Below are positions 2,348-58,267 of a stretch of 64,000 bases of DNA, piece by piece (within the stretch, counting starts at the first letter, position 1; each line of letters starts with the position of its first letter). The notes under the pieces were generated by a model. That model made no database searches, was not told the DNA's origin, and saw nothing but the letters and a program-made list of their open reading frames with translations. This DNA comes from Semisulcospira habei (Eukaryota; Mollusca; Gastropoda; Semisulcospiridae), in NCBI GenBank assembly GCA_036245525.1, contig BTPG01000003.1, positions 190,715,164 to 190,779,163 of the forward strand. The letters are read 5' to 3'. A program made the position numbers and the translations under genes.

Positions 2348-2854
2348 GTTGAATTTTAACTTTCCCAAATGAAGTGCAACACAATACAAAAAATATATAA
2401 ACAGAGGGAATAGGGAATAAAGTTTCAATGCAGTAAAGCGCGGCTGAAGTTATAGCACCTCGTATCAAAACGTCACAAATGGTGTCCAACACAGCGTTAT
2501 CAAATGAAGATCGCTTTTGATTAATAGTGTATCCACGTATTAATGCTGCGCAAGCTGTCTAAATAAATGAACAAATGGTGTAGCCTGCGATGTGAAGTAT
2601 CGTAGGCTGAACACTTGAAACCGTACTGTCACAATGAAAACTTAGCGGAGCTTTGGTAATCAAACCAGGCGAGAAAATCACAGAATTTGAGGCACACAGT
2701 CAATCACTGCTTTGGAATAAATCACAAGCGAACGCAGAAGAACCGTATATAAAGAAGCACACGTAACACTGACGTAATAATGAACTGCCTCACACACCCA
2801 CGGTGAAATCTGCGAAGCACAACGGTGAAGGATCACTGATCACACGACACTGAA
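2348..2854 (-). other. Inter-ORF spacer of the LINE
   Basis: About 507 bp lie between the ORF1 stop and the ORF2 ATG. I see no coding frame with family motifs. The gap means ORF2 would need internal initiation or reinitiation rather than simple stop-start coupling. Confidence 0.6.
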
Positions 2855-5641
2855 TTACCAACCGCGTAAGTAGCTGACGTATCCATTGGCACCATTCGCT
2901 GTGGGCACCTGGCATAACTGGTGGTACGGTGGCAGACTATTAACCGGATAAGCAGATACACTGGTTGCTGGGCGATGATTCGACCACACACCATGGCAAC
3001 CATCCGGGTACTGTGGTTGTTGCCAGGGTGCTGCAGTTGAAGAGTTGGTATGTATTTGCAGCAGATGATGGTACTGGAGTTGCTGCCAGTCAGGAACCGG
3101 CATGAAGGGCATCTGTTGTAGATGTTGCTGCTCCTGTTGTAAATGTTGTTGCTGCGCCTGTTGTAGCTGCAGCTGCTCCTGCTGTTGAAGTTGTTCATGG
3201 TCCTGTGGTTGAGGCTCCTGGCGTAGAGGTAGTTGTACTGGTGATGTGGGACCAGCAGAACCGGATACAATAGTGTCAGAAGTGGAAGTGCCACTCTGTA
3301 CATTCAAGCTACCACCAGCTAAGGCCTCTGAGTAGAGTTTCGTCTTAGTGGTCGCCTGAGAGCTTCTGTGCTGGTGAGTAATTGCATCAGCCTGGTTGAC
3401 AGCTGGACCACCGTACTTGATATTGCCGGCAAGCCTCCGGGTTCCCACGTGGGATGGATGAATGGGGTCAAGTCGGCCTTTGTTGTCCACACGGTACAGC
3501 GCCTTCCGGGGAAGACCGCTTGGGGCTAGGAACACGCCCGCATTGTCAACAAAGATAGCGCGCATCTTCTTTGCCACGTGGCACAGATTTGCGTTGGAGG
3601 GGGAAATACGTTGGTTAAGGCGAGAGTTTTTCCCCTGGGCAGCAGGCAAGATGGATGAGGCCTGGATGCTTGCTTTGGGGAACACGCCTTTGCAAGAAGT
3701 GACCAGTCTCTCCCACTGCTGACTGGTGATTTCATGCGTCTTGCAATCGTTCACCCCTACGTGGAAGGTGACCAGTTGGACGCGGGGTGACTGCGGCTGC
3801 TGCTTGAGCCAGTCAGTCAAGTGGGAGATTTGCAGGCCGGATATTGAGATGACCTGTACCTTTTCGCCCTGGTACATGGTCATCTTCTCTCCCTTGAAGT
3901 TTCGCACGACGGAGTCCCCGATGACGAGCGTGGTTGTGTCTACCTCTACGTTGTGATCAAAGACCCGCTCGCACGGAAGAAAGTCCTTGCGCTGCTGCTG
4001 GCTCCCGGCAATCCGATTACCGCCCCCTTGCCGCTGGCCAGGCTGAGACGGCCCGCTCCCCTCACGGTGGCTGTCTGCGATAGGGGAGGCAACGTTGACC
4101 GTAATAACCGCACTCCCTGGGGCTTGCTCTTTCTGGCTACTCGGAGGGTTGTTCTTAGGAACGGTAATCCTTACTGGGATCACATCACCAGCTGTAGTGG
4201 ACACAGGCTTCATACTAATGATTGTATCACTGTTTACGGGCATAGAGCCTTCAGGCGTTGTTGACACTAGTAGTTGGGGGGTTTGGCCAGAGGCCAGAGG
4301 TAGCCCTTGTTCAGAGTTCAGTCTTTGCAGAGTGTCGTCGACGAGACAGTGAAATTCTGCCATGTTTGTCATTTGATCATGTAAGTGGGACATCTTGCCA
4401 CACATACAAGACTCTAACATCCGGAGGTCATTTGCCATCTTCACCGCGGACTCGCACACCTTACTGTCAATCTGCTTAATATTTAGCATAGTGACAGTTC
4501 TCAGCTGACACAACTCTTGATGGAGAGCCTCGACGGCGGCCTGGCTGTTGCAGAGTTGGGTCTGCAGCTTTAGGATGATAAGCGGCTTTTCGTCTCGGAC
4601 ACCGGACACCACCAGCTCGCTATAATCAGAATCCACCTGAGTGCACGAGACGGGTAACCCGGGCGAGGTCAAGTCCTCGGTGGTGACGTCACCCGTAGAC
4701 GCCACTTGGGTAACAATATGGCTGACAGGACTTGGTGTGGAGGGGGCAGGTTCGGGTGTGGAGGGGGTAGTGGCAAGGGACTGACTGGCAGGAACATCAG
4801 AGTGATCAGAGAGGGTGGAGTGGAGATCATCCCGTAGATGTGGCCCGCTGGAGGAGGGGTGTGGGATGGAGGGCGGGGTAGGCGGGCCGTCACTGGTCAT
4901 GTCACTCACAGCGCTGACGGTGGTCACGGTCAGAGGCTCGGGGACAAGATTAGCGGAGCTGTTCCGAGGGTTACAGGACTGAACAATCGGCGATAGGGAG
5001 GTAGAGTCGTCAGCCTCCAATCCGATTAAGGGGAGGGATGAGTCCAAAATTGCCCGAGGAGGGGTGTCTGGGAATGATACTATCGGGGAGATGGTGGGAT
5101 CGCATGACTGGTCACGCGGCATGTCAACAGGGACATTGTCAGCAGGGTCTGCGCAGCCGTCTTTCAGCTGTTGTACGAATGTACACAAAGAGTCATATTC
5201 GCTTAGGACCCACGTGTCCTTGTTGTGTCCCTGAATGAGACAGGTGCCGCCAGTCTTGCGACGCACGTGGAAGTAGAGGGTGATAGTGATTTTTGGTTTT
5301 GCTCTCCCCCTGATTTGTATGAATGTTTTTCCCAAGTCATCGGGAATGTCAGGATTGGAACAATCCAGGTAGGAGTCACCACACTCTACAGGTTCATTTC
5401 TGGCGTCTGTGTCCCTCCAGACTACAGTGTAACCGCCTCTTGCCTGGAGCAGGTTGACGTAGCGGTGGTAGAGGGCAGTTCGCCAGCGCTTGAGGGTGAT
5501 GACGCCATTGGGGCCGTTGCTGTAGAAACGCGTTTGCTGGCCGCACGCAGTGTCCTTTAGCACCGGGTTTTCTCTCTTAAAGGGATTGGCGAGGGTGGGG
5601 TCTTGCGTCACGACACTTAGAGAGAGGGATGAAGATGCCAT
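2855..5641 (-). CDS. LINE ORF1 with SGNH/GDSL esterase-like domain, 928 aa
   Basis: Intact 928-codon frame starting MASSSLSLSV. After a basic N-terminal half and a long Ser/Thr/Pro-rich linker, a coiled-coil-like stretch (about residues 360-430) precedes an SGNH hydrolase-like domain. Its catalytic landmarks are present: GDSV near residue 575, GVND near 629 and a DPIH pair near 727. The C-terminus is rich in Gln (about residues 815-850). Esterase-type ORF1 proteins are known from CR1 and related LINEs, where they are thought to bind the element RNA in the ribonucleoprotein; the lipid or ester substrate is unknown. The first ~170 residues match nothing I can name. The ATG at 5641 is the first in frame. 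Confidence 0.88.
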   Translation of the reverse strand: MASSSLSLSVVTQDPTLANPFKRENPVLKDTACGQQTRFYSNGPNGVITLKRWRTALYHRYVNLLQARGGYTVVWRDTDARNEPVECGDSYLDCSNPDIPDDLGKTFIQIRGRAKPKITITLYFHVRRKTGGTCLIQGHNKDTWVLSEYDSLCTFVQQLKDGCADPADNVPVDMPRDQSCDPTISPIVSFPDTPPRAILDSSLPLIGLEADDSTSLSPIVQSCNPRNSSANLVPEPLTVTTVSAVSDMTSDGPPTPPSIPHPSSSGPHLRDDLHSTLSDHSDVPASQSLATTPSTPEPAPSTPSPVSHIVTQVASTGDVTTEDLTSPGLPVSCTQVDSDYSELVVSGVRDEKPLIILKLQTQLCNSQAAVEALHQELCQLRTVTMLNIKQIDSKVCESAVKMANDLRMLESCMCGKMSHLHDQMTNMAEFHCLVDDTLQRLNSEQGLPLASGQTPQLLVSTTPEGSMPVNSDTIISMKPVSTTAGDVIPVRITVPKNNPPSSQKEQAPGSAVITVNVASPIADSHREGSGPSQPGQRQGGGNRIAGSQQQRKDFLPCERVFDHNVEVDTTTLVIGDSVVRNFKGEKMTMYQGEKVQVISISGLQISHLTDWLKQQPQSPRVQLVTFHVGVNDCKTHEITSQQWERLVTSCKGVFPKASIQASSILPAAQGKNSRLNQRISPSNANLCHVAKKMRAIFVDNAGVFLAPSGLPRKALYRVDNKGRLDPIHPSHVGTRRLAGNIKYGGPAVNQADAITHQHRSSQATTKTKLYSEALAGGSLNVQSGTSTSDTIVSGSAGPTSPVQLPLRQEPQPQDHEQLQQQEQLQLQQAQQQHLQQEQQHLQQMPFMPVPDWQQLQYHHLLQIHTNSSTAAPWQQPQYPDGCHGVWSNHRPATSVSAYPVNSLPPYHQLCQVPTANGANGYVSYLRGW

Positions 5642-6390
5642 CGCGACTCGGACTTGGTGGTATGCTGTAACCGGGCACTCAGCGCCAACTTTAGAAAGTT
5701 AGAAACAAGGGTAGGTGTGGAGGGTGGTGGGATCAGCAAACATTGTGACACCCCTCAGGAAGTGCCAGCGTGTCTGCAGGGCTGACAGGAGTGGAGTCTG
5801 GTGGAGACGATACAGCATCGTGTCACAGAGTCAGTAAGCCGAAAAGCAAACATTGGCTGCTTAGATCTGAAGTTCAGCAATAGACTGCTCTAGTCACAGT
5901 CTAACTCCTCACAGTTACTGACAGTGCAAGGGATGAAATATATAATTGAACGAAAAATATAGACAATGGCAGGCGTAAGTTCTACTATATTCAATGAGTT
6001 CCAGAAAACAAAGTGGATGACGATGCGTTCAAAATTACGAGAAGAATATCGTAAAGTGATAGTTCGTATGATCGGATTTACCTTGCACGACGGACAAAGA
6101 CTGGCTTCAGTCTGGGCACAACTCGCATCACACGTACACAATATGATATCATCCGGGGAAAATAGTGTGCTTTGTCCTGCACACTTCTCACACTCACAAC
6201 ACAAGCATTAGGATATCCGTGTGATGATAGTTAGTATGCACGTCCACTGGAATAATGTTTAAAAAGTATAAGAAAGTCCACAGCTTACATAGAAAAACAC
6301 ATAGTACACAGTATATCAAGCAATCCAAAGCGTCACGGTTGGCTGCACGACGGAGCTAAGACTTACACGTCTTACCCCGCCGGCGGCTGG
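5642..6390. other. Upstream of LINE ORF1; possible 5' UTR, no gene seen
   Basis: No supported coding region. The stretch next to ORF1 is probably the element's 5' leader and promoter. A GC-rich segment just before the microsatellite (about 6330-6390) may mark the 5' end, but no target-site duplication can be recognised. Confidence 0.4.
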
Positions 6391-10482: not shown

Positions 10483-10696
10483 TTAACTCGTTCAGCACTG
10501 ACGCACTACAGCAGGAGATGGGTCGACCATGATAATTCAAGGGTAGTGCCAGATTAGCTTGGCGCCTGTCGGCGCCAAGCTAATCTGGCACTGCCCTTGA
10601 ATTATCATGGTCGATCCATCTCCTGCAACTGGTGCATAGTCATTAGATGACACCTCCAAAATTTGGGAAATACGGCACTCGGGCTGAATGAGTTGA
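10483..10696. mobile_element. P1 palindromic TTAA MITE
   Basis: TTAA at 10483 and TTGA at 10693 flank termini CTCGTTCAGC and GGGCTGAATGAG. The centre is a long stem meeting at GGCGCCTGTCGGCGCC. It lies downstream of gene A. Confidence 0.85.
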
Positions 10697-11320: not shown

Positions 11321-19829
<8,509 letters not shown>

Positions 19830-23188: not shown

Positions 23189-26162
23189 ATGACTAAAGCG
23201 CTGCTTTTAATATCCGTCCTCTGGGCGGTGTGCACGTGCGGGGTCAACAGCCAGCCGTTTAACGACACCATGTTTGCCCTGCTCTCAGGCCAGGCCGACT
23301 ACACACGCTTTTTGGGGCACGCAGGTCGCATCGGGCTCAACTTGACGCTCAAAGACCCCTACGGTAGTAGAAGAACGTTTATAAAACCCTTTACTACTGA
23401 CGATAGCGTCTGGCGGAAAAGACGCGTAGTTACGCGTCTTTTCCGCCGAACGCTATCGTCAGTAGTAGTCAAGGGTTTCTCCCAAACCAGATAGGTGAGG
23501 CTAGCGCTGGCAGAATTGTATACAAACCAAGGGGAATCACAGCGCTGGACAGACAAACAGATCTCCTGCCCCCGCCTATCAGGCACCCAGTCGCCAGCCC
23601 ACAGAGATTAATACGCAGGTATAGAACAAGACGATCATTTCCATCGAGGATGGAAATGATCGTCTTGTTCTATACCTGCGTATTTCTCTGTGGGCTGGCG
23701 ATTGGGTGCCTGATAGGCGGGGACAGGGGATCTAACTGTTTGTCTGTCCAGCGCTGTGATTCCCCTTGGTTTGTATACAAGGGTTTCTCCGCCGAGTGAT
23801 ATCGACAGTAATGACAGTAAATGATCCACTCGGCAGTAGAATGAAGGTTCCTATACACACTTAGGGAATTTGTAGTGACATTCAGTGTGCCAGCATGGGG
23901 TGCTGTGAACACGTTACACGGCATGTCAATGCTGATTGGTTGCAACACTTCGACATGAAACGCAGTGACCTTTTAACTTCATTATAAGGAATCGACATTA
24001 TCTCTACGTATTTCAAAGACTTTAGGGTTTCTGCCATTCAATAGTAGACCCTACAGTGAGGGAATCAGCTGGTACTATTTTAGCGGGCAATTTATCATGT
24101 GTATTGTATCGGAAACAATTTCACCTCGCAGAAACTGTAGAATTGCTGGTGGCAAGCTTGCCAACATCTCTCCAGTTTGCATTGCTTCTGATATCCACCT
24201 TCTAATATCCACCATTTTGCGACTAGAATTTATTCAATAAAGGGCACCCAAAATATTCAAACGTACGTTTGAATATTTTGGGTGCCCTTTAATGAATAAA
24301 TTCTAGTTGCAAGAGATGGATTGACCATCGAAGTTCAAAGGTTGTACCTAATTAGCACCTCCCGATTAGCGTGTTGCCTTCATATCCCCAAAGTGATACA
24401 ATTTGTAAGTGTCATTGTTTTACTTCTGCTGCAAATTTTTAGGACAGTGCAAAAGTATCTGGTTATTCAAACGTACTTTCTCATCTTTATCCAGAGAGCT
24501 TAACCGTGTTTGTACCATCAAATGCGGCCTTTGAGCGGCTGCCTCAGGATGTCCAGAAGAAACTTGAAGACAACCTTGACTTTCTCACAGAGGTCATGTC
24601 CTTTCATCTTTACCAGGGAGCAGTGTCTTTCAGCACGGATAACGCCATGTATTCCAGTCTAATTGGAGCTCAGGCTCGAGTCAATGTTTACAAAACGAAC
24701 AGTACGACTGTAAGTTTGTTTGGTATTTTATCTTGTTATCCATTTCAGCTGACAGTGTCCGAATTTTCAATTTAGATAATGTGAAATGTGAAAGAGGTTT
24801 TTAAGCAGACATTTTCTCATTCATGTAAGCGTGCTTTCCATGGTACACGTTCTATAGTTAGCGTATCTGCTACTGAAAGCCTTGGTAACCTTTTCTCTTC
24901 CGATGGATGCAGATTTTGTTTTTGAAATCATTGTAAATTCAACGTCAGAGATCCCTAGTCGTTATATAAACATAGATACAACGTTTTCAGTAAAAGGCAT
25001 AGATCTTTATGAGCCCCCGCAACTGCGGGGGCTCATGAGGATCTATACCTTTTGCAGTGTGATGGTGTAAGCAGTGAGGGGATTAATCTAAAATCGTAAT
25101 GAAATGGGTTAACAAGTTATATCACCAGTACGTTAAGCATGTGTTCAGCGGGCTACATCTGAAATGAATTTTTGCAATGTTCACATGTCTTTGCTCAGCA
25201 ATGATTGAGATACAAATTACACCCGCTTGAAACATTCATCCCGGATTTTCTATTAATATGAAGCATGTGGGTCGTCCGTGATATGTCGTGGATGGTGCCA
25301 GATAGATTGATTCTTGCACCACCCTTGAACTATCAAGGTCCTCCCATCTGTATATTAGCACTTTCTGCTCCAGGACCAAAATCCGCAAATTTTGAAATTG
25401 CCCACTGAGGACTGTATTACACTTCTGGAAACAGATGGAGCGTGATAGTTCAAGGATTGTGCCAGAATAGCTTGGCGCCTATGGGCGCCAAGCTATTCTG
25501 GCACAACCCTTGAACTATCACGCTCGATCCAGGTCTTGCCGTGGCGTGTCGGAGTTGAATGAGTTAAGCTGGAAAGTGATCTTCAGAGGACAAAACCAAA
25601 ATTTGGTTATTTCGACCTCAGGGCTAAAGGTGTTAAAGGATTTAACCGTTTGACCGCTGTTAACAATAACGTTCAGCGGAAAAGACGCGTAATTACGCGG
25701 CGTCTTTTTCGCCAAGCCGTATCGCCAGTAGCAGTCAAAAAGTGAATTCTAGCTAACATTACCCCACTGCCCGTTCACAATAATTATGGTGTTTATTTTC
25801 CGCGTCCCATAGCTAGCAACAGTGTTGGGAGTGCCAGTAACAAGCGCGAAGTCACTCGCGGCTCGCAACGGGTTCTTGCATCTTGTGGACAAGGTCCTCT
25901 ATCCCATCCCAACCAGTACTGCTCTCAACCTCGTCAGCAGCGATGACAACTTCAGCAAGTTCAGCCTCGCACTCTCCAAGGCTGGAGTGATGCCATGGCT
26001 TAATGGTAATGACTCAGAAACACTAAGCTGCTGTTTGGGTCAGGGGTTTTGTGTGTTCAACGCAGAGCGTATGGACAACAAACACACCTGTACAAAACGA
26101 CAAGAAGAAAAAAATATTGAAAAAGGCAATGGTAAATGATGTTATAAAAATCAATAGCCTAT

Positions 26163-26278: not shown

Positions 26279-28185
26279 CCATCAACAACAACAACCTGCC
26301 ATAGGAATATAAGCTGTATAGTCAGGGAGGAAAGCCAAGTTATCGTGTCGGTCCGATGGGACTACATGGTGAATAAGTTATGTTTGTGGTTTGGGTTCTA
26401 ATGTAATAGGACTTCACGAATCCGGTTTTATGAAGATTGTAAATGTGATCAAACAGAAGTAACAACCATTTGAAGATTTAACAATTTAAGAACCTTTTCA
26501 AGCAATGCAATAATTATTGTTTGTAGGTCAGAATTAATTGAAAATGAAAACACTGCATAATTGTGTTGCTGGTTCCGTTTGCATGTGTCTCCGGTCAATT
26601 AATATTGTTTGGAGATTACACCATTTGGGACTTGACCCATTTGAGAATATACTGTAATTTGTAGAGTTGATTTGCAAATCATAATTGCCAATATGCGAAA
26701 CTGATTGAAATCATACTAATCAAACATGAATATGGAACACTTGTTGGAATTTTCAATAAGCCGCGTATCCGTATACGGCACGTCTCGAATGAATTAAAAT
26801 GCCTTCCAGATGAAGATGTGACGATACTGGTGCCGGATGATGCAGCCATTGACAGACTTCCTGCCGGCCTTTTCTCTGCCCTGCTAGCAGACATCCCCAC
26901 GCTCACCTGTAAGTTTTGCCTTTGTTGTTGCTGGTGTTGGTGTTGATGTTGATGGTGGTGGTGATATACTAAATTGCTGTTTTGGCTGTTGCTGGGGTTG
27001 TTATAGTTATTGCTGATGCTGCTGTTTGTTATCATTTATGTTTCCAGCCTTCGAAACTCCTCTTCTAATTTATATTTAACATTTTAACCGCTTCACTGCC
27101 AGCTGGAGTTAACTCAACGCCAAAAATACCACAGCCGTCCAAGGAACATGGATACAAATTGGCGTCAGCAAGAAACATTGATCCTCATGGGCCCCGCAAC
27201 TGCGGGTGCCCATGAAGATCTATGTCTCTTGCAGTTGGATCGTATTAGTTTTATCTCTGCAGTCAAGGGGTTAAATTGTGTATAAAATTAGGCTGAAAAA
27301 AGTATGCAGTCAGCTAATTGTGTTATCCCTGTTTGTTATGTTGATCTTACAGGGGTGTTGCATAACCACTTAGTCCAAGGTGTGTGGTATTCCGCCTACT
27401 TTTTGAACAACGGCGGCGGGACCGTGGACTCCATGGACGGACGACACCTCAACGTCAAAGTCTTAGGTATCATTTAAAAATTAGTTTTTGTCTATATTTT
27501 AATTCCTTTCCTGCCATTGGACACAGACTGTGCGTCTGAAATACTGGTTAATTCAACGTCAAAGAACTCTAACCGTCCAAAGAAGATGGACACGAATGGT
27601 GTCAACAAGAGACATAGATCTTCATGACCCCGCAGTTGCTGGGGTCATGAAGATCTATGCCTCTTGCAGTCGGATCACGTTAGTTTTTCTTGACAGGAAA
27701 GGGGTTAAACGCAGGTGCACTACTGTGAACCAAAAACCTTCACCTATACATTTCTGCAACAACAAAAATAAATAAATAAATAATAAAAAATAAATAAATA
27801 AATAAATAAATAACAGACTATGGCTTCACCCATACATTACTGCAACAACAAAAATAAATAAATGAATAAAAAATAAATAAATAAATAAATAAATAACAGA
27901 CTATAGCTTCCTTGCTTGTTTGTTTATTTGTTTTGATTTTCCTTTCTGTTTGTTTGTTCGCTCGTTTTCATTTTCCTTTGTGTTTGTTTACTCGTGTGTT
28001 TTCATGTTTTTATTTGTTCGTCGTCTTTATCTTTTGATTCAGATGACGGTTCTACTTTACAAGTTGGTCAAGCTAACGTGACACAGGCTGACATCAGCGT
28101 GACGAATGGCGTTGTCCACGTCATCAGTCAAATGCTCCTTCCTCCTGACATCTGGGACCGTCTCCTTCTGACTAGCCGAGTCTAG
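23189..28185 (+). CDS. Gene B: secreted protein with two FAS1 (fasciclin) domains, 312 aa
   Basis: Six exons: 23189-23363, 24495-24709, 25813-26005, 26810-26908, 27353-27466 and 28043-28185, intron phases 1,0,1,1,1, joined frame closed by TAG. Signal peptide MTKALLLISVLWAVCTCG. FAS1 domain 1 has TVFVPSNAAF and NGFLHLVDKVLYP; domain 2 has TILVPDDAAI, GVWYSAYFL and NGVVHVISQMLLP. A pyrimidine-rich acceptor (ending TTGCTTCAG at 23173) lies 15 bases before the ATG, so a non-coding exon upstream is likely. Exons 2, 4 and 5 have exactly the same length as in gene A. AATAAA at 28407 is a plausible poly(A) signal. Likely extracellular adhesion or matrix protein, as for gene A. Head to head with A across about 3.4 kb, convergent with C. 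Intron 1 holds a 261-bp perfect hairpin. Confidence 0.88.
23380..23478. mobile_element. P6 palindromic MITE in gene B intron 1
   Basis: ACCCTTTACTACTGACGATA mirrored by TATCGTCAGTAGTAGTCAAG. The inner arms GGCGGAAAAGACGCG and CGCGTCTTTTCCGCC match perfectly around TAGTTA. It begins 17 bp after the exon 1 donor. Confidence 0.83.
23518..23778. repeat. Long near-perfect hairpin (arms ~130 bp) in gene B intron 1
   Basis: From GTATACAAACCAAGGGG to CCCCTTGGTTTGTATAC with almost complete complementarity, turning at TTTCCATCGAGGATGGAAAT near 23648. Only a few mismatches or indels. Being intronic, it would be transcribed as a foldback RNA. Confidence 0.88.
24221..24309. repeat. Hairpin, ~43 bp arms, gene B intron 1
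   Basis: ACTAGAATTTATTCAATAAA and its complement flank GGGCACCCAAAATATTC / GAATATTTTGGGTGCCC around AAACGTACGTTT. Nearly perfect. Confidence 0.85.
24885..25086. mobile_element. P4 MITE in gene B intron 2
   Basis: GTAACCTTTTCTCTTCC left, GCAGTGAGGGGA-TTAA right; stem GATCTTTATGAGCCCCCGC with loop AACT. Confidence 0.82.
25265..25352. mobile_element. Degenerate P1/P2-type fragment
   Basis: GGTCGTCCGTGATATGTCG faces CTTGAACTATCAAGGTCCTC, remnants of the core stem. Ends lost. Confidence 0.45.
25355..25567. mobile_element. P2 MITE in gene B intron 2
   Basis: Left TTAG-CACTTTCTGCTCC, right GGAGTTGAATGAG-TTAA. The stem TGTGCCAGAATAGCTTGG folds at GGCGCCTATGGGCGCC. Confidence 0.83.
25642..25742. 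mobile_element. P6 MITE in gene B intron 2
   Basis: TTAA-CCGTTTGACCGCTG left; inner arms GGAAAAGACGCG and CGCGGCGTCTTTTTCGCC; GTAGCAGTCAAAAAG right. Ends 70 bp before exon 3. Confidence 0.75.
26166..26295. repeat. CA and CAA microsatellites
   Basis: CA array (26166-26247) followed by CAA array (26248-26292) in gene B intron 3. Confidence 0.9.
26756..26800. mobile_element. P7 fragment next to gene B exon 4
   Basis: AAGCCGCGTATCCG then CGGCACGTCTCGAATGAATT, the right half of P7, ending about 10 bp before the exon 4 acceptor. Confidence 0.65.
27084..27274. mobile_element. P4 MITE in gene B intron 4
   Basis: TTAA-CCGCTTCACTGCC left, GCAGTCAAGGGG-TTAA right, stem around CATGGGCCCCGC / GGGTGCCCATG. 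Confidence 0.85.
27499..27708. mobile_element. P4 MITE in gene B intron 5
   Basis: TTAA-TTCCTTTCCTGCC left, GACAGGAAAGGGG-TTAA right. The stem ATCTTCATGACCCC faces GGGGTCATGAAGATC, with both arms changed relative to other copies. Confidence 0.86.
27740..27906. repeat. Two-copy ~86-bp tandem repeat with AAATA tracts
   Basis: CTGCAACAACAAAAATAAAT and AACAGACTAT each occur twice with AAATA/AATA tracts between. Confidence 0.75.
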
Positions 28186-35677: not shown

Positions 35678-38600
35678 TCAGAGTTCCAACTCTCTTTTGA
35701 CGTCAGGCGGCAGCAACACGTGACCGATGACGTGTACGACACCGTTGCTCACACTAACGTCAGCTTGTGTGACGTCAGCCTGGGCGATGTGAAGTGTTGC
35801 ATTATCGGCTGAAATATAAAACAAAATAGAGATCATACTATAACTTTGGTGAAATCCTAAAGCGGGCTTCAGTTTGGCTTGATCTCGGACGCAGATAGCT
35901 GTGAAACGTCATTATTTGACACACGTAGTTTTCACTGCGTGTGAGGTCAGAATATGACGTATCGCAGCTGCTGGCGTTCCAGGTTGTGCCAATAAAGAAC
36001 CCATATCTGTTTCGGTCAAGAGATGGTTACTATTTAGCAATGTCTCCTTTATAAATGTAATTAGTTAGGTCTCACAATAATGCTGGATAAAAGGGCTGAC
36101 TTAACTGAATTTTGAATGTCGTAAAATGAAAGAACCATTAAGTAAAGGCCATCGGGCCCACAACGGCCGAAGTGGGCCCGCGCACGACCGAGCGCGGGCC
36201 CACGGCGGCCGTCGCGGGCCCGAAGATGTTTTTTACTGGGGGACTTTTCTCCTCTTCCAACGACCCCTATACGGAGGACAAGAAACCCTCCGTTACGTGT
36301 GCTTACTCACGTGAATTGTCAAAATAAGGGTAGAAAAGTCTTACTCTTAGTTGTGGCAAGGCAAATTGAAAATCCGTTCTGTCGGCAGCGTTTTGCATAT
36401 AGGACGAGACAATGTGTAAAACAAGTCCCCGATTATTATAACACATTCTATCCCAGAACCGAAATCCCTTAAATATTGAAGTTGCCCTCTGAAGGACTGT
36501 ATTACAATTCTAGGGGCGCCAAGCTATTCTGACACCACCCTTGAACTATCATGCTCGATCCATGTCTTGCTGTGGTGTGTCAGGGCTAAATGAGTCAAGT
36601 TCTACAACACACTGTTCTGCAAAGACACAGTAAAAGATCGAACTTGTTCTTTTGTTACTGTCCGACTTACTAAATTAAAAATGTCTTTGTAAGGAATGGT
36701 TAGCCAGACTTACGCCTATTTTGTTTTGCTAAACTCATCAGGCACTAGCGTTCTGCTACCATGATTCTGAAACTAATGTGAAAGAGAAATTCGCACCTGC
36801 AATAGTGACGTTGAGTTGCTGACCATCCAGAGAATGCATGTTGCCCCCACGGGCCGCCAAGAAATAGGCTGAGTACCACACCCCTCGCACCACGTGGTTC
36901 TGAAGCACTTCTGAAACATCATTATGCACAGTCGGACTGTATTAGTCGTGCAAATTCCTGTGCTCAAGTTCCATAAAAGGTTTTACTGGCGGGACAAGGT
37001 GCAAGAGGAATGGATCTCAAGCACACCAGGTACTGCCCTTTATCCACTTACCTGCCGAGAAAACTGGACACCGCCCAACTGAAAGAGGTATAGATCCTCA
37101 TGAGCCCCCGCAATTGCGGGGGCTCATGAGAATATATACCTCTTGCTGAAACCACTTTGCGTCCATGTTCATGGGAAAGCTGGGTTTATTTGTCGTAAAA
37201 AAAAATTAACAAAGATTTCAGAAACATTATATGCCTCCAGCTGGAAGCGAAACTGTTAATCCATTATGGTCGATCTGTCTCCAGATCTGGTGCAAGTTTT
37301 CACATGCAGGACACCTTTCAAACTTTGGGAATTTCTACCTTAAGGCTGAAATTTTGTTAACCCCTTCGTTGCTATGCTGCCGAGAACTTTCGGCGGAAAA
37401 ACGCCTAGTTACCCGTCTTTCCCTCTCAGCGGTATCGTCAGTAGCAGTCAAGAGGTTAAAAGGTATAAAACAACCAAATAAGTAGATGGGATGGCGCTGC
37501 ACCCAGGGCGAGACACCTTTCCCCGGTGAGCGCACCCGCATTTTGCCTCGTGGGACAATATTAAAGTGGTACACAAACATGTGTGGAAACAGCGCGTACT
37601 TGTCAGAAGCGAAACGTCCTCCAGCAGACGCGAGAAGAGACCCGCTGGCAGCATCTGGAACGCGACGTCACTGGGGGCCAATACCGTCACGTTGGGGACT
37701 GTGAGCAGAGAAAAAAAATGTAATGCGTGTCTGGAACGTACGGATCTAGATACAAACTCACAGACCAGCACACAGAACGCACAGGCGTAAAGCCCAAAAT
37801 ATATAGGGAAGAACCCAACGGAGAAAAAAAGACGATTAGAAAAGACAGTTACAATAGAATGTGTTAATATGTCTTCAAAATAGACAAACAAACACATAGA
37901 GATCAGCCGCTACTTACCTTATCAGCGAAATAGGAATGTGGCAACTCAAAATATATAGATCAACACGCTGCCCAGCTACAAGATACATACATCCCAATCA
38001 ACTTCAAAAATATCAAGAGACATAAATCCTCATGAGCCCCCGCGACTGCGGGGGCTCATGAGGATTTATGTCTCTTGTTAGTCGGTTATGTTCTTTATGC
38101 CTAATTTTGTCCCATTTACACATGTGCTCTTCTTGTAAATGTCGGTCCATGTTCGTGATCACCTCTCCTAATACGCGGACGGATATGGAAAGCACGAATT
38201 ATCCTCCATTCTTTGCCAGTGATCACGAATTTTGCGTTTGCTACGCACTGACCGACATTCCCGTGAATAAATATATATATGTAAATGGAACCATGTATGT
38301 AATAAAGAACATAGTCTAACGATAGACATACATCCTCAAGGGCGCAAGCAACTACGTGGGCTTATGAGAATTTATGTCTCTTGCAGCTGGGTAGCATTCG
38401 TCTTGCCCTGGCAGTTAAGGGGTCAACTTCTTGTTTCTGCCTTCGTATGCTTACACGAATCTAAGTATGTAGCTGCACTGGTCTGTGAATTTGGATTTCG
38501 CCACTACAGGTCGTAGAAACTAAAATTACAGACATGCACACACGATCGTCCAGATTTATGAAAGCAAATATCCTCAAACGACACAGAACGCCTAAGTCGA

Positions 38601-41600
38601 GAAGATATAAATTATTAAAATAAAACGATAATTTACTGAGATTTCAAACTTGTGTTTGCGGCATTTTATTCAATGTGTACATGTCAGAGATCGTGTTTTC
38701 CAGACTAAAAAGAAAAATCAAACTTCTGAATTTGTGGCGGTGTTACCCTTGGAAATAGGCCCTTTAAAGTACCGGTGGCTGCATGCATGCATGAGAAGGA
38801 TGCCGAGAAAATGTGATACGATCCATCTGCACGAGACATAGATCCTCACAAGCCCCCGCGACAGCGGGGGCTCGTGAGGATCTATGCCTCATGCTGAGAC
38901 CAATGTGTATCCACATTTCTTGGACGGTTCTGGCTTTTGGTCGTTGAATGACGTAAGATTCCAGAAATGAAATTGCACGTACAGTGGCAGGGAAGATGTT
39001 CAGAGCGTGAGAATACTGAAAGGGAAAAAACTTCACAGGCGCTCACCACTGAAAAGCGATCCTAACCCGGCCTTGGTGAGCGCGAGCAGCAGCATGTTGA
39101 AGTTGTCCGTGTTGATCAGACTGAGCGCCGTGCCCGTGGGAACCGGGTACAGCACCTTGTTCATCACGTGCAGCACGCCGTTCTTCGCCGGGTTGTCGAG
39201 CAGGAGGATCGTGCTCCCTGACACTGTGGTCACCTGAGTTATGCGCAAGAGATGTTCCCAGTATGAAGGAGGTCATTGGGCCGACGTTGGCCGCAGTTGG
39301 CCAACGCGCCAACTGCGGCGAATGTCGGCTCGATGACGTTTAGGGTTTACAGACAGACGTGCTCCCTGACATTGCATGAGTTAATCGTCAACAACATAAG
39401 AACCATACAAGAGCTTACGTCGGGATTGCTGTAGAGGTCGACTCTGATGTCGTAGCTGGACAGACTGGGGTAGAGGGCGTCGTCCAAGGTCAAGGGCACG
39501 TAACCTTGAGTGATGTGGAAGGTCACGACCTGCTTCAGTTGTTCAAGGTTGTTCTCAAGTTTCTTCAAGGTGTTTTTAGGTAGTCTGTCGAAGGCCACGT
39601 TTGACGGCGCAAACACTGTGAAGTTTTCTGTCGACAGACAGAAGACATTTCAAAGTGACAGATCTCCTGGTTGGCTGATGTTAACAGAAAATCTCAACCC
39701 AAGCGTAGTCAACTACTTATTATTGAGGTTTCGTTTGAGACGAACGACTCCCAACAACTAACGAAAGCAAAATCGCCATGGGTACCATCAGTATAGACAG
39801 GGGCGGATCAGTTACCTCGAGGTGTGTGTGTGTGTGTGTGGGGGGGGGGGAGGGGTTCCAACTTTTTGTTTGGGACCTTCAACCTGATACAAAAAGGCCT
39901 CCCCGGCGCTAAACCTTGCTTCCAGGGGCCGAAAAATCAAAAAGCGAAAAAGGGGGGTGGGGGGTGGGTGGGATGGAGAGAAGGAGAGGGAGGCGCGCGT
40001 GTGTTAAGACTCTCACCGTTCGCCAAAATACCAAACAACAGTAGGGGGTCGGGGGGGGGGGGGGGGGTGGTGTTCCAAACACCCCCAAAAGAGACTTTGT
40101 TATAGCATTTTAGGTCTGGCACCCCCCCCCCCCCTCGACCCTGATAGATAATAGTCGAAACAACAAGAGGCATAGATCCTCATAAGCCTGAAGGGCTCAT
40201 GAGGATCTATGCCTCTTGGAATTATTTGGGGTGTTGTCAATGTTTAAAGCAGTGTTTGGTAGATGTGGCTATCTGCCATGACTTAGTCGTCGCTCGTGTT
40301 GGGAATCGTTCATTACAAACGCAACCTCACCAATATAAATTTTAACCCATTTAGCCCTGACGCACTACAGCAGGAGATGGATCGACCATGATGATTCAAG
40401 GGTAGTGCCAGATTAGCTTGGCGCCTGTTGGCGCCAATCTAATCTGGCACTGCCCTAGAATTATCATGGTCGATCCATCTCCTGCAACAGATGCATAGTC
40501 GTTAGATGGCGCCTCCAAATTTTAGGAAATACGTGCGCCGGGCTTAATAAGTTAAAAAAAATTAATAAAAAGAACAAAATAAAATAAACAAAATGAAAAA
40601 TTATGCATGACGACAGGCAGGTAATTCTGTGTCCGAGGTTCTCTGCGGGATGAAAACCAGACACATGATGTAACTTTGTATCTGATCGTTCCATGTATTC
40701 GTATTGATCGACTCTGGGGGTCACTACACAGATTTATTTTCTTTCTCGAAACTACTACTTGTGAAGACAATTAGGCAAATAAATGTGTAACATATAATGA
40801 ACACTTTTGATTGGTTTTAACCACATAACTGCCGAGAAAAAGTGAACACGATCCAACCGCAAGGGGGCTCATGAGGATCTATGCCTCTTGTGGAGACTAA
40901 TTTGTATCCAATGTCTCTTGTATGGTTTTGGCTTTTGGTCGTTGAATGAACAAAGATTTCAAACAAAAATGTTCGTACAGTGGCAGGGAAATGGTTAATA
41001 TGAAACGGGCGGGACTTTTTCGTTTAAGTTTCCCACGCAAAGCAGGAAAGCGATATTATATTATTTTATATTATAATTATTGAGCAGCATTTTGCTTGAT
41101 ATAGTGCTAATAAGAGGCAGATGTGATTACGAGACCCGAATCAAAATGTCCGAGTCGCAAGACGAGGACATTTGATTCGGGTCAAGTAATCACATATATC
41201 GGTTATCGGCACTATATCAAGCAAAATGTTCATCAATATTATTTATGTAGCCAGTCCAAAACAAAACTATGCCTCGCGTCATTCATTTTGCGGCTGATTG
41301 CGGTGTTCAGAAAAAAAAAAACACATGGATGGCAGACGACTGCATATCGTTGTCGACTCAGAGCGTAGATTTCATCTGACTATGAAGATATCAGTGCATT
41401 GTATAACCGTGTGTGTTACTGCGAGTAAATTCTACGTGTAAATAGTTCACGCATAATTGCGAAAAATGCCAGCAGGTTTGTTTATTTAGTTATTTTCTCA
41501 GGTTGTCGATATCACCAGCTGACTTCTCGTCGATTTCACATGTCAGTCCAGCGACTCAAACGTTTCCTGGCGTCTTTTCTCCGTTGGTGTGTTTTTGTAT

Positions 41601-42947: not shown

Positions 42948-43161
42948 TAGTCCCGACAGCCTACAGCAGGAGAAATTGACCATGATAACTCAAGTGAATG
43001 CCAGATTAGCTTGGCGCCTGAAGGCGCCAAGCTAATCTGGCATTCACTTGAGTTATCGTGGTCAATCCATCTCCTGCAACTGGTACATTAATAATTTAAT
43101 ATTGTCGTATGGCAACGCCTTCAAAATTTGGGAGATGCGGTCGTTATGCTCAATGGATTAA
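42948..43161. mobile_element. P1 MITE
   Basis: ATTA-CCCATTTAGTCCC left, CTCAATGGA-TTAA right. The stem ACTCAAGTGAATGCCAGA is mirrored by TCTGGCATTCACTTGAGT, both arms changed relative to GGGTAGTGCC copies. Confidence 0.86.
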
Positions 43162-53195: not shown

Positions 53196-56100
53196 ATGAG
53201 ACACTACGGGATCTATCTTCTAGTCGTATGCTGTTGTGCAGGCGCTAGTGGGGATGTGAAAGTCGGCGGTTCCGGACTTCTTTCCAAGTCGTTTTTCGCC
53301 GAGAGCGGGCAGAGGAAATATGAGTACAAAACGAACGCTGGTACGGTAAATCTATTGTACTTTGTGTATGTTGTCTCATACTAACCCAATTTTATTGAAG
53401 TATTGTCATGGAATCTGTATTGTTTACTTAATTTTTTTAAACTCATTCAGCCCTGACGCACTACAGCAGGAGATGGGTCGACCATGATAATTCAAGGGCA
53501 GTGCCAGATTAACTTGGCGCCTGTCGGCGCCAAGCTAATCTGGCACTGCCCTTGAATTATCATGGACGATCCACCTCCTGCAACAGGTGCATAGTCGTTA
53601 GGTGATGCCCCCAAAATTTGGTTAATATGTGCGCCGGGCTGAATGAGTTAATTTTCAGGTCACCCTTAGTATTACACGCGACAGTGTGCCGTGGTATCTG
53701 ATATATAACTCCCACATCATGGTGAGCGAAAGGCCCTCGGGCCGAGGTCAGCTTTAGCTGGCCCGCGCACAATGGTGCGCGGGCCAGCTAAAGCCGGCGT
53801 CGGCCCGAGGATCGTTTGCTTACCAAGTGGGTTTTCTTCACGAGTCGATGTGAATTCAGCAGTACAATAACGATCGCCAGTCGCACGGTCTGACTTGATG
53901 TTTCCCCTGTACCTCGATAGACTGAGGCTGACATGTAGGCCTATATTTCATGTGACATTCTCAAATGAAAATAACTCACAGATTCAAATTCAAAGTTTTT
54001 CTGTGCCTGATAATATGTCAGAGGTTAGCTGTTTTTGACGATTATAATGAAGGCGACGATAACATTGTCATGAACTAGAGACGAAGATGATGATGATGAT
54101 GATGATGATGATGACGATGACGACGAGGATGATAATGATGTTGTTGATGTTGAAATTGATGATTCGAATGACGCTCTTTAGTGTCACAATGACAGCTCGC
54201 GAGCTGCATGCACAAGTTTCCATTTGCGAGTTTGAATTTGGCTTTGGGAGCTAGCTGAGCAAAACCTCATCGTGCCGATGTCTGCAGTAGCTGGCCCGCG
54301 CACGACCGTGCGAGGGCCAACGACGGCAGACGTCGACCCTAGCACTCTTTGCTCACCGGTGATTCACTTGGAATCAAGATACCTGCCCGCGTTTTAAACT
54401 TTTCTGGCAGACGTCGGCCTGAAGAAACAAAAAGTGTAACGCTTAAGGCATAACGTCTTTTGTAGACCACAACGGTGATTTCAAAGACAGGGCACCGAAA
54501 AGGGTCTGCCCAAAATTTTGACCACAGCTGGGTTCGAACCTGGAACCTTTCGAACGACAGTCGAACGCTCTACGACTTGAGCCATCCAGCTCCCCTGACC
54601 TGAAGAAAATGTTGCTAGTTAGACACAGTCTGATTAAACGCTGTTCTAAACTATATTACTCGTAGACTGCCTTGTTTTCAACGCTATGTCTAGACAAATG
54701 CCGGTGTCCTGAACTATTTTTCCCTATAGGCCTCAGGCAGGTTTTGCAGAAATTGAAGAAGTTGCAAGGGAATCAACCCAGCAGATGGGCGCCCCGAGTC
54801 ACCAACTTCCACCATCGTCCTATGCCCTCCTTACGCTTCCAAACCCGAGCAACCTTAGAACAATCCCCGAACATAACTAGTCAGCCAGCCATCCTAGCAG
54901 TAGCAGCAAGCGCTAACTTAACTCAAAGCACCAAGCTAGACAATATCACACACGGAAACAGCACGCTTAACAACTGTACTGAAGGGAACAAGACGGCACT
55001 GATCTGTTGTCATGGCAAGCATCCCCACAACAACTGCACGGAGGGCAAGAACCTGACTCTGGTCTGTTGTCACGAGAACACGCGCCACGACAACAAGACG
55101 GGCAAGAACCACACCCACTGGCTCTGTTGCTACAGCAACCAGACTCACGGTAACAACAGTCATAGCAACAACACTCATGGCAACTGTACCCAAGGCAACA
55201 CCACCAATCTGATATGTTGCCATGGAAACGGTACTCATAACAATTGTAGTCACAATGCCAACCTGACATTAGTCTGTTGTCACGAAAGCACGCGCCACGA
55301 CAACAAGACGGGCAAGAACCACACGCACGTCATCTGCTGTTATTCCAACACCACGAATGGCAACAACAGTCATAGCAACCACACGCATGGCAACTGTACC
55401 AACGGCAACAACACCGAGCTGATCTGTTGTCATGGAAACAGAACCCATAACAACTGTAGTCAAAACGCTAATCTGACTCTGGTTTGCTGTCACGAGAGCA
55501 CCAGACACGATAACAAGACAGGTAAAAACCACACACACGTCATCTGTTGTTATTCCAACACCACGAATGGCAACAACAGTCATAGCAACCACACGCATGG
55601 CAACTGTACCAACGGCAACAACACCGAGCTGATCTGTTGTCATGGAAACAGAACCCATAACAACTGTAGTCAAAACGCTAATCTGACTCTGGTTTGCTGT
55701 CACGAGAGCACCAGACACGATAACAAGACAGGTAAAAACCACACACACGTCATCTGTTGTTATTCCAACACCACGAATGGCAACAACAGTCATAGCAACC
55801 ACACGCATAGCAACTGTACCAACGGCAACAACACCGAGCTGATCTGTTGTCATGGAAACAGAACCCATAACAACTGTAGTCAAAACGCTAATCTGACTCT
55901 GGTTTGCTGTCACGAGAGCACCAGACACGATAACAAGACAGGTAAAAACCACACACACGTCATCTGTTGTTATTCCAACACCACGAATGGCAACAACAGT
56001 CATAGCAACCACACGCATAGCAACTGTACCAACGGCAACAACACCGAGCTGATCTGTTGCCATGGAAACAGAACCCATAACAACTGTAGTCAAAACGCTA

Positions 56101-57978
56101 ATCTGACTCTGGTTTGCTGTCACGAGAGCACCAGACACGATAACAAGACAGGTAAAAACCACACACACGTCATCTGTTGTTATTCCAACACCACGAATGG
56201 CAACAACAGTCATAGCAACCACACGCACAACAACTGTACCAACGGCAACAACACCGAGCTGATCTGTTGTCATGGAAACAGAACCCATAACAACTGTAGT
56301 CAAAACGCTAATCTGACTCTGGTTTGCTGTCACGAGAGCACCAGACACGATAACAAGACAGGTAAAAACCACACACACGTCATCTGTTGTTATTCCAACA
56401 ACACCCATAGCAACACCAGTCATGGAAACCATACCAACGGAAACCACACTCACGGCAACTGTACCCATGGTAACGTGACCAATCTGACTTGTTGTCATGG
56501 AAATGGCACACACAACAACTGCACTCAAGGAAACCACACTGGGCCTGTCTGCTGCTACTCTCACACCACGCATGACAACAGTACGTACAAGAACCACACG
56601 CACTTGATCTGTTGCTACGATACCACTAACCACACTCATAGCAACGGTAGTCATGGAAACAGCACTCAAGGTAACCACACGCTAGGCATCACCGACTCTT
56701 CAGCCCCTGCCAGTTTAACTGACACCACCCTTCCTTCCATCCCTGTTGACGTGAGTAGCGTGAGTGACCTGGCTGTCGGCAGACGTGAAGCGCCTCAAAG
56801 TCAAAGTCCTGAAATGGCGATGCCAGGCGGAGGTAAGTGTCTTCCCGAACCTGTTCAGTGCTAGCAATATTTGATTGAACGCCACCCACCTGCAAGAGGT
56901 ATAGATCTTCATGAGCCCCCGCAATCGCGGGGGCTCTTGATGATCTATACCTCTTGCTGACACCACAGTGAATCCACGTTCTTGGGACAGTTAGGGATTT
57001 TGGGTGTTGAATTAACGAAGATTGCAGAAAAACAGTCTGCGTCAAGTGTATGATGCCGCCGTTACTGATCACAGTGCCGGTGGCCGCATGCGCAAGGGTA
57101 CTTTTCGCTGACATCTCCAACGCAAAGAGCTTCGATACTTTGTACTATGATATCGCTCGAAGTGAAATTAGGCAACGCTGCGTTTGACGCCACGCGCTGT
57201 GAGAAACACCGAGTATGACGTCATATTGTGACTATTACAGTAGCGCGTGTCAAGAGGCTTTAACACCTTCACTGCTAATGGACGCAGACTGTGTTTTTGA
57301 AATCAGTCATTTTAAAGTCAACGTCAAAGATGCACAGTCATTAAAGGACTGTTTTCACTCAAGAGGCATAGAGCCTTGTGCATATGCGCTACCGCATCTG
57401 CTGTGGTCCATGAATTCTTTGCCTCTTGCAGATGAGCTGTTTTCGCGTTTCCTGGCAATAATGGGTTTAAGAACTCACGTTTGTTATTTTAGCTTTGAAA
57501 ACCAAGAACATAGGTGTCGTTAGAAATGTGTGTAAACACTAGTGAATAATTTTTTTTAATGAAAAATGGGAATTAACATCAAGTTGGTTTTTTTTCTCCA
57601 GGCAATGTTACGTGTATTGTTACGTAAAATACGCATTTAATTTATTTTTAAGAAGAATGGCAAATAAGTCATTAAAACGAAAAAGAATACATGACGGAGG
57701 TAGGAAAAAAATAGTAAATAAATAAATAAATAAATATTGCTTCGCATTCTAACTGGTAGTTATACAGTGCTTGTTCAACCATAATAACAATGTATAAGCA
57801 TGAATTACACATCTTTTCCATCTACGATTTATACTCTTTGTTGCTAGGAGGAGGTAAGATGCGTAGCAAGAAGACAAGAAAGCAGCGGTTGCGGGCCTTC
57901 CTGAAGCTGATGGCGGAAAGCCTGCTGGATCTTCTGGAAGAGGACGACGGGGAAGACAGGGACTTGCTGGATTTCTAA
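53196..57978 (+). CDS. Gene D: secreted Asn/His/Thr/Cys-rich repeat glycoprotein, 792 aa (unrecognised family)
   Basis: Three exons: 53196-53340, 54730-56832 and 57848-57978, both introns phase 1 with GT/AG borders, joined frame ending TAA. Residues 1-19 form a signal peptide (MRHYGIYLLVVCCCAGASG). A short basic segment LRQVLQKLKKL follows the first junction. Residues ~139-702 are eight repeats of about 70 residues, with landmarks LICCHGN, LVCCHES, DNKTGKNHTH, VICCYSN and HGNCTNG. Each unit has three Cys-Cys pairs, two single Cys, about ten N-X-S/T sequons and many His. The C-terminus is basic then acidic (KMRSKKTRKQR, LLDLLEEDDGEDRDLLDF). No transmembrane segment seen. I cannot assign a family; a heavily glycosylated, disulfide-linked, possibly metal-binding extracellular protein such as mucus, capsule or shell matrix is inference. 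CTGTCCTCTGTCAG at 53153-53166 may be an acceptor after a non-coding leader. Confidence 0.82.
53437..53651. mobile_element. P1 MITE in gene D intron 1
   Basis: TTAA-ACTCATTCAGCCC left, GGGCTGAATGAG-TTAA right; well-paired P1 stem. Confidence 0.87.
53722..53830. mobile_element. Hp1 hairpin in gene D intron 1
   Basis: GCTTTAGCTGGCCCGCGCAC mirrored by GTGCGCGGGCCAGCTAAAGC around AATG; outer GAGCGAAAGGCCCTCGGGCC. Confidence 0.85.
54085..54140. repeat. GAT/GAC trinucleotide tract
   Basis: GATGATGAT run followed by ATGACGATGACGACGAGGAT. Confidence 0.88.
54265..54358. mobile_element. Hp1 hairpin, second in gene D intron 1
   Basis: GCTGGCCCGCGCACGACCGT then GCGAGGGCCAACGACGGC; outer GCCGATGTCTGC / GCAGACGTCGACC. 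Confidence 0.72.
54428..54598 (-). mobile_element. tRNA-derived SINE in gene D intron 1
   Basis: On the minus strand an A box TGGCTCAAGTCG (54584-54573) and B box GGTTCGAACCC (54540-54530) sit in a tRNA-like head. CCTGAAGAAA is duplicated at 54418-54427 and 54599-54608, so the insertion of about 171 bp is well delimited. Different family from the SINE at 20748. Confidence 0.85.
54999..56690 (+). repeat. Coding tandem repeat, 210-bp unit, eight copies
   Basis: Units start at 54999, 55209, 55419, 55629, 55839, 56049, 56259 and 56484. Units 3-7 are almost identical, differing mainly at one CATGGC/CATAGC/CACAAC site. The first two and the last are diverged; unit 7 is 15 bp longer. The reading frame is kept throughout. 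Confidence 0.95.
56845..57050. mobile_element. P4 MITE in gene D intron 2
   Basis: CCTGTTCAGTGCTAGC left; stem CAAGAGGTATAGATCTTCAT faces TGATGATCTATACCTCTTG, GGTATAG on both arms; right flank AACGAAGATTGCAGAAAA. Starts 12 bp after the exon 2 donor. Confidence 0.8.
57262..57470. mobile_element. P4 MITE with replaced stem, gene D intron 2
   Basis: AACACCTTCACTGCTAATGG left, CTGGCAATAATGGGTTTAA right. The centre CAAGAGGCATAGAGCCTTGT does not pair in the usual way. Confidence 0.62.
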
Positions 57979-58060: not shown

Positions 58061-58267
58061 CCCGTTCAGTGCCAGGTGCCGCTGTGTTTCTGCAATCTTC
58101 GTTAATTCAAGACCAAGAAACCCTACATGTCCTAGAAACATGGATTTAAAGTGGTGTGAGCAAGAGGCATAGATCCTCATGAGCCCCCGCAACTGCGGGG
58201 GCTCATGAGGATCTATGCCTCTTGCAGTTGGGTGGTGTTCACATTTTATCGGCACTGAATGGGTTAA
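58057..58267. mobile_element. P4 MITE sharing a TTAA with the P7
   Basis: TTAA-CCCGTTCAGTGCC left, GGCACTGAATGGG-TTAA right, perfect stem AGAGGCATAGATCCTCATGA. The best complete P4 copy in the window. Confidence 0.9.

Follow-up and report, generated by a model that had tools for sequence, protein, structure and literature searches.

Gene D, on the forward strand of a 64,000-nucleotide stretch of the Semisulcospira habei genome (contig BTPG01000003.1; hereafter the window), encodes a repetitive protein whose central array is built on a five-residue lattice of N-glycosylation sequons and cysteine pairs. The product is, on balance, best read as a secreted, disulfide-linked structural glycoprotein of a matrix or of mucus, with a lattice kept by selection; its secretion, glycosylation, disulfide bonding and tissue, which is left unnamed, are predictions. 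It is placed among the secreted structural matrix glycoproteins because its plan is galaxin-like and because shell proteomes contain uncharacterised tandem-repeat proteins. The lattice, the coding constraint upon it and a block of near-identical copies can be read directly from the bases. The array and its parts are located as follows:

54942..56684 (+): pentapeptide array of 581 residues, with 116 pentapeptides, 84 sequons, 24 Cys-Cys (CC) pairs and 64 Cys.
55002..55211 (+): unit 1, old, with 53 of 70 residues in common with unit 4.
55212..55421 (+): unit 2, old by its silent sites, with 67 of 70 residues in common with unit 4.
55362..56411 (+): five near-identical 210-bp copies with 0–7 base differences, pointing to recent amplification or homogenisation.
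56487..56621 (+): diverged unit 8, with 28 of 45 residues and 7 of 7 Cys in common with unit 4.

Beneath the 70-residue, 210-bp unit, the basic repeat of the array is a pentapeptide (15 bp), fourteen of which make up one unit, a lattice that was absent from an earlier note on this DNA. Among the 116 pentapeptides, 72 have the form N-x-[T/S]-x-x and 24 the form x-C-C-x-x, with no overlap between the two sets, and 96 of the 116, or about five in six, are an in-phase sequon or cysteine pair. All 24 CC pairs start at pentapeptide position 2, with spacings of 20, 20 and 30 residues (once 35), and 72 of the 84 sequons start at position 1; the gap between successive sequons is five residues in 51 of 83 cases. 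Shuffling the array 2000 times gave 27.8 sequons on average and never more than 43, against the 84 present, and when the residues of unit 4 were shuffled 20000 times (mean 3.7 sequons) its ten sequons were reached in three shuffles. The third residue of the sequon is Thr in 70 of 84, though Ser accounts for 41 of the 129 Ser and Thr residues. This preference fits the described skipping of closely spaced NXS sites by the transferase STT3A (PMC4750078). In the same work some NCT/S sites are likewise described as missed by the co-translational transferase; sequons near Cys are described as depending on redox partners of STT3B (PMC8645230).

These counts bear out much of the earlier note, which had described eight 70-residue repeats with three CC pairs and about ten sequons each, five of them almost base-identical. 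The 24 pairs do fall into eight triplets within exon 2, but the repeats are not all exact 70-mers, as successive triplets are 70 residues apart six times and 75 once. Ten sequons were counted in units 2 and 4 and nine in unit 1. The near-identity of five copies is right in the register 55362–56411 (0–7 differences per 210 bases), and a register starting at CC gives four full near-identical units (0–4 differences) and about two-thirds of another.

The old units differ mainly at third codon positions. Between units 2 and 3 there are 25 base differences, 22 of them at third positions, and the uncorrected ratio of nonsynonymous to synonymous change (dN/dS) is 0.04 in the annotated frame, with 0.16 in the next lowest frame. 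The annotated forward frame has the lowest ratio of the six in all seven unit pairs compared, where the pairs with unit 7 include pentapeptides that are partly shifted in the last third of that unit; a 470-codon frame is also open on the minus strand over the array. Because the differences gather at third positions and dN/dS is 0.04, the array is judged to be coding and under strong selection as a protein, and the coding frame assumed in the earlier note is upheld.

Comparison of the old units 0, 1, 2 and 8 with unit 4 indicates which residues are kept. Cys is retained at 24 of 24 positions. Of 29 sequon positions 27 are retained, nine of them with a different middle residue. Thr is retained at 25 of 28 positions and His at 23 of 27; for all residues outside the set C, H, N, S and T the figure is 43 of 62. 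By pentapeptide position, from 1 to 5, the changes number 7, 11, 6, 11 and 11, of 41 each. This is the pattern expected if glycan attachment and disulfides, both predicted here, are selected traits.

With regard to the history of the array, DNA self-identity across units 0–2 is 0.43 at a lag of 15 bases and 0.45 at a lag of 30. For the remaining lags of up to 36 bases that are divisible by three it is 0.28–0.33. The array therefore likely began as a tandem repeat of 15 bp. Recent amplification or gene conversion, as proposed earlier, has evidently worked within this older array on a block of 1050 bp, with units 1 and 2 differing from units 3–6 by 25–55 bases and unit 3 from unit 4 by one base. 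As 210 is a multiple of three, exchange of units leaves the frame intact. Exon phase, given previously as the reason that copy number can vary, plays no part in this; its bearing is limited to events in which the exon as a whole is skipped or duplicated. A 15-bp minisatellite from another part of the genome (L003:1499-2005), used as a control, reads N-R-[S/T]-H-A in one frame and differs from its own consensus by 3 silent and 25 replacement changes across 34 units, an edge unit included, the opposite of what is seen in gene D. It bears no signs of coding constraint and illustrates how a lattice of sequons can arise beforehand in a repeat of this type.

A three-exon model fits gene D, with one further candidate for the terminal exon:

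53196..53340 (+): exon 1, with the start codon (the first ATG after in-frame stops), the hydrophobic N-terminus MRHYGIYLLVVCCCAGASG and about 29 more residues.
54730..56832 (+): exon 2, 2103 nt, phase 1-1, encoding a basic linker, the pentapeptide array and a Ser/Pro tail with a GRR dibasic site.
57848..57978 (+): likely exon 3, encoding the basic stretch KKTRKQR, then an acidic tail and the stop; acceptor score 6.2.
57602..57627 (+): alternative terminal exon, with an acceptor score of 7.8, above that at 57848; the protein would end GNVTCIVT-stop shortly past exon 2 (translation by eye).

The boundaries, length and phases of exon 2 reproduce those reported earlier. Its donor at 56833 (GAG/GTAAGT) is strong, scoring 7.9 on a rough base-frequency matrix, which was used for all splice scores. 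Exons 1 and 2 can be joined in at least two ways, which give products a few residues apart: a phase 1 form (donor 53341, weak at 2.4, with acceptor 54730 at 5.1) and a phase 0 form (donor 53346 at 2.9 with acceptor 54741 at 1.3), the former scoring higher. The main model yields a product of 792 residues, and a form of 790 residues contains 16.6% Asn, 12.8% Thr, 10.5% His and 8.5% Cys; with a cut assumed after residue 19 of the latter, the mature chain of 771 residues has 82 His and 64 Cys. The hydrophobic start MRHYGIYLLVVCCCAGASG is likely a signal peptide, and the last 29 residues have a computed isoelectric point of 4.05. Within intron 1, a tRNA-like stretch at 54519–54591 (−) scores 29.3 bits against an Rfam cutoff of 29 and is not called by ARAGORN; it is perhaps the head of a tRNA-derived short interspersed nuclear element.

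Searches for relatives point to gene D being an orphan within its own genome and the libraries searched. In the 1.98-Gb genome there is one clear place each for the array and the N-terminal part, with 64 of 116 and 12 of 12 candidates scored, respectively, so that these counts are lower bounds. Two further matches, L002 (30-bp) and L003 (the 15-bp repeat described above), were rejected as relatives, being minisatellites open in several frames, and L006–L009 (expect value, E, of 0.026 to 6.3) were taken as chance. In Pfam, no family reached its cutoff for exon 2, for pieces of it, or for the first 140 and last 92 residues of the protein; DUF4534 (E 1.1), TcA_RBD (4.7) and ScdA_N (4.7), on a 210-residue piece, each fell below cutoff at chance level. 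No PDB chain matched under E 0.7, and two ribosomal proteins (E 0.7 and 1.1) were dropped as chance level. Protein searches gave no matches for the whole protein (E up to 0.01; 4678 candidates) or for exon residues 71–300 and residues 1–120 (E up to 10; 1198 and 272 candidates), in searches that may have applied a composition filter, had no positive control for animals and did not recover the query's own protein. The pattern also matched 17 times in viral and 14 times in prokaryote contigs, but no match was confirmed, here too with no positive control for animals. The orphan status is confined to this genome and these libraries because the protein, viral and prokaryote collections may hold no animal relatives and the query's own protein was not recovered. 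No paper on the gene D protein was found, judged by titles among the matches listed.

While the earlier remark that no family of this composition was known agrees with the lack of any match above chance in the libraries searched, it was too strong as to kind, as secreted proteins with di-cysteine tandem repeats are known, including galaxin, Amgalaxin-like 2 and cysrichin. In the available parts of their descriptions, these are skeletal or shell matrix proteins in corals and a mussel, and Amgalaxin-like 2 has three di-cysteines per 41-residue unit (PMC2726143, PMC10045328); according to their authors, galaxin-related proteins share little beyond the di-cysteine arrangement (PMC2726143). Galaxin-like proteins, from corals and, for cysrichin, the mussel Hyriopsis, are further described there as having tandem repeats with regular di-cysteines, a predicted extracellular location, dibasic sites and, in some, an acidic domain. 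Gene D appears to share this plan, with 24 regularly spaced CC pairs in tandem repeats, a hydrophobic N-terminus, and GRR and KK sites (by eye). Mussel and limpet shell proteomes are also described, as far as the available text goes, as containing many uncharacterised proteins with short tandem repeats (PMC4517812, PMC3374290). Most likely, then, gene D would work like the galaxin-type di-cysteine repeat proteins, a likeness of plan that does not by itself establish membership of that family; no sequence match to it came up in the libraries searched. What differs is the predicted glycosylation: the available part of PMC2726143 gives one to three N-glycosylation sites and describes no five-residue lattice, whereas gene D has dozens of sequons set on one. 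The sequon lattice, likewise absent from the galaxin-type descriptions available in PMC10045328, is what gene D adds to this plan.

Other repetitive proteins resemble gene D in part. The Balbiani ring secretory proteins have short subrepeats and Cys in each unit, and their genes are midge-specific and far longer than gene D; they are not known to have a five-residue sequon lattice. In the available description from Chironomus, tandem repeats make up their central coding regions, as in gene D (PMC4192438). The five-residue beat is also that of another group.

Pentapeptide-repeat proteins form a right-handed quadrilateral helix in which one coil takes 20 residues. Gene D shares the beat, and a CC spacing of 20 equals one coil, but the full 20-20-30 spacing breaks whole coils, and the Pfam Pentapeptide models gave no match up to E 10 for exon 2 or two pieces of it. 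AlphaFold models, with a mean predicted local distance difference test score (pLDDT) of 37.3, are too low in confidence to speak for or against such a helix.

It is improbable that gene D encodes a matrix protein of shell or skeleton in the strict sense, as a true but diverged member of the galaxin-like group. Its hydrophobic N-terminus, its di-cysteines in tandem, its dibasic sites (GRR and KK) and its acidic C-terminus do match descriptions of galaxin-related proteins, and galaxin has been reported among Crepidula shell proteins. Against this stand the dozens of sequons, where galaxin-related proteins are described as having one to three, and a Pfam search in which no hit up to E 10 was to a galaxin model, though the copy searched was not established to contain one.

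It is similarly doubtful that the product is an extracellular metal sponge, in which Zn, Cu or Cd would be taken up by His (in NHTH and CCH) and Cys, with glycans serving only for solubility. It would then be like vertebrate histidine-rich glycoprotein, which is secreted, N-glycosylated and carries His-rich pentapeptide repeats as a short HHPHG-type block in a cystatin-domain protein. Gene D resembles it in its five-residue His-rich repeats and predicted N-glycosylation, but histidine-rich glycoprotein is without CC pairs or a sequon lattice, and no cystatin domain was among the Pfam results for exon 2 or the terminal parts of gene D. Metallothioneins, which are small, intracellular and rich in Cys-x-Cys, differ from gene D with its 792 residues, hydrophobic N-terminus, CC pairs and lack of a Pfam family. 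The 82 His and 64 Cys of the mature chain and the retention of His between old units would suit a metal sponge; however, the Cys of proteins exported through the endoplasmic reticulum are usually oxidised, and metal binding would give no reason for sequons to be retained at 27 of 29 positions.

A gamete-coat or immune-recognition protein, with repeats homogenised within species and diverging between species as in the abalone egg receptor VERL, is less probable again. The five-copy block beside old units diverged at silent sites, and the single clear copy in the genome, would agree with such a role, but the old units are under strong purifying selection (dN/dS 0.04) and no ZP domain or other Pfam family was found above chance. 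That the array is a non-coding minisatellite open by chance is very improbable: the minus strand is open for 470 codons and open minisatellite frames do occur elsewhere (L003), but the differences gather at third positions, with the same low dN/dS, and exon 2 ends in a strong donor.

Several points weigh against a secreted matrix or mucus glycoprotein. All Asn, not just those in sequons, are kept at only 36 of 46 positions in the old units and all Ser at 8 of 18, while in unit 1 pentapeptide positions 1 and 2 changed equally, at 4 of 14 each; the conservation sums moreover reuse unit 4 as the reference throughout, so that the comparisons are not independent. AlphaFold2 on three units (six overlapping windows of the array) gave no usable fold at the mean pLDDT already stated. 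The signal peptide and dibasic sites were assessed by eye, and 57848 and 57602 are both candidates for the start of the terminal exon. At a spacing of five residues, sequons may be only partly occupied, and sequence alone does not tell mucus, egg coat, shell or plasma apart.

Upstream of gene D, six exon-like stretches are alike in fasciclin (FAS1) sequence: 13968–14081 (−), 16227–16502 (−), 24497–24727 (+), 26815–26919 (+), 37583–37711 (−) and 39431–39637 (−). Two were tested in Pfam, of which one passes the cutoff and one falls just below. They form three pairs of two exons each, whose orientation alternates, and are likely three FAS1 genes in a cluster. Positions 2–5698 (−) hold an element of the long interspersed nuclear element (LINE) type, with an open reading frame (ORF) carrying endonuclease and reverse transcriptase domains, next to which lies an ORF with a GDSL-esterase domain; CR1-like LINEs typically have an esterase ORF1. 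Across the window, 22 near-perfect palindromes of 48–96 bases were listed, many with one of two arm sequences and some in or beside gene D (for example 10523–10614, 13700–13795, 42975–43066, 53482–53565 and 58160–58225), and these are likely short fold-back elements.

If gene D does encode a secreted structural glycoprotein, the signal peptide would direct the product to the endoplasmic reticulum, where oligosaccharyltransferase would load Asn at many sequons to give a dense, water-holding N-glycan brush, and the CC pairs, one to every 20–30 residues, would join chains by cross-links or make the backbone stiffer. The NCT and NCS sequons, with Cys as the middle residue, would be sites where glycan and disulfide compete, His residues could add metal- or pH-dependent bonding, and unequal exchange of 210-bp units would alter chain length with the frame kept. 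More tentatively, gene D may represent a new protein polymer, in which a 15-bp minisatellite has given rise to an N-glycan brush as a five-residue lattice with CC cross-links at fixed steps and NC[T/S] sites able to act as either, placing glycan and disulfide on one scaffold with its length tuned by 210-bp exchange. Mucin-type brushes are normally O-linked. A repeat held by strong selection to one five-residue beat of Asn sequons and CC pairs would be their N-linked equivalent and a clear example of a minisatellite turned protein material, and it would offer a natural test of oligosaccharyltransferase on sequons placed every five residues, with Cys inside them.

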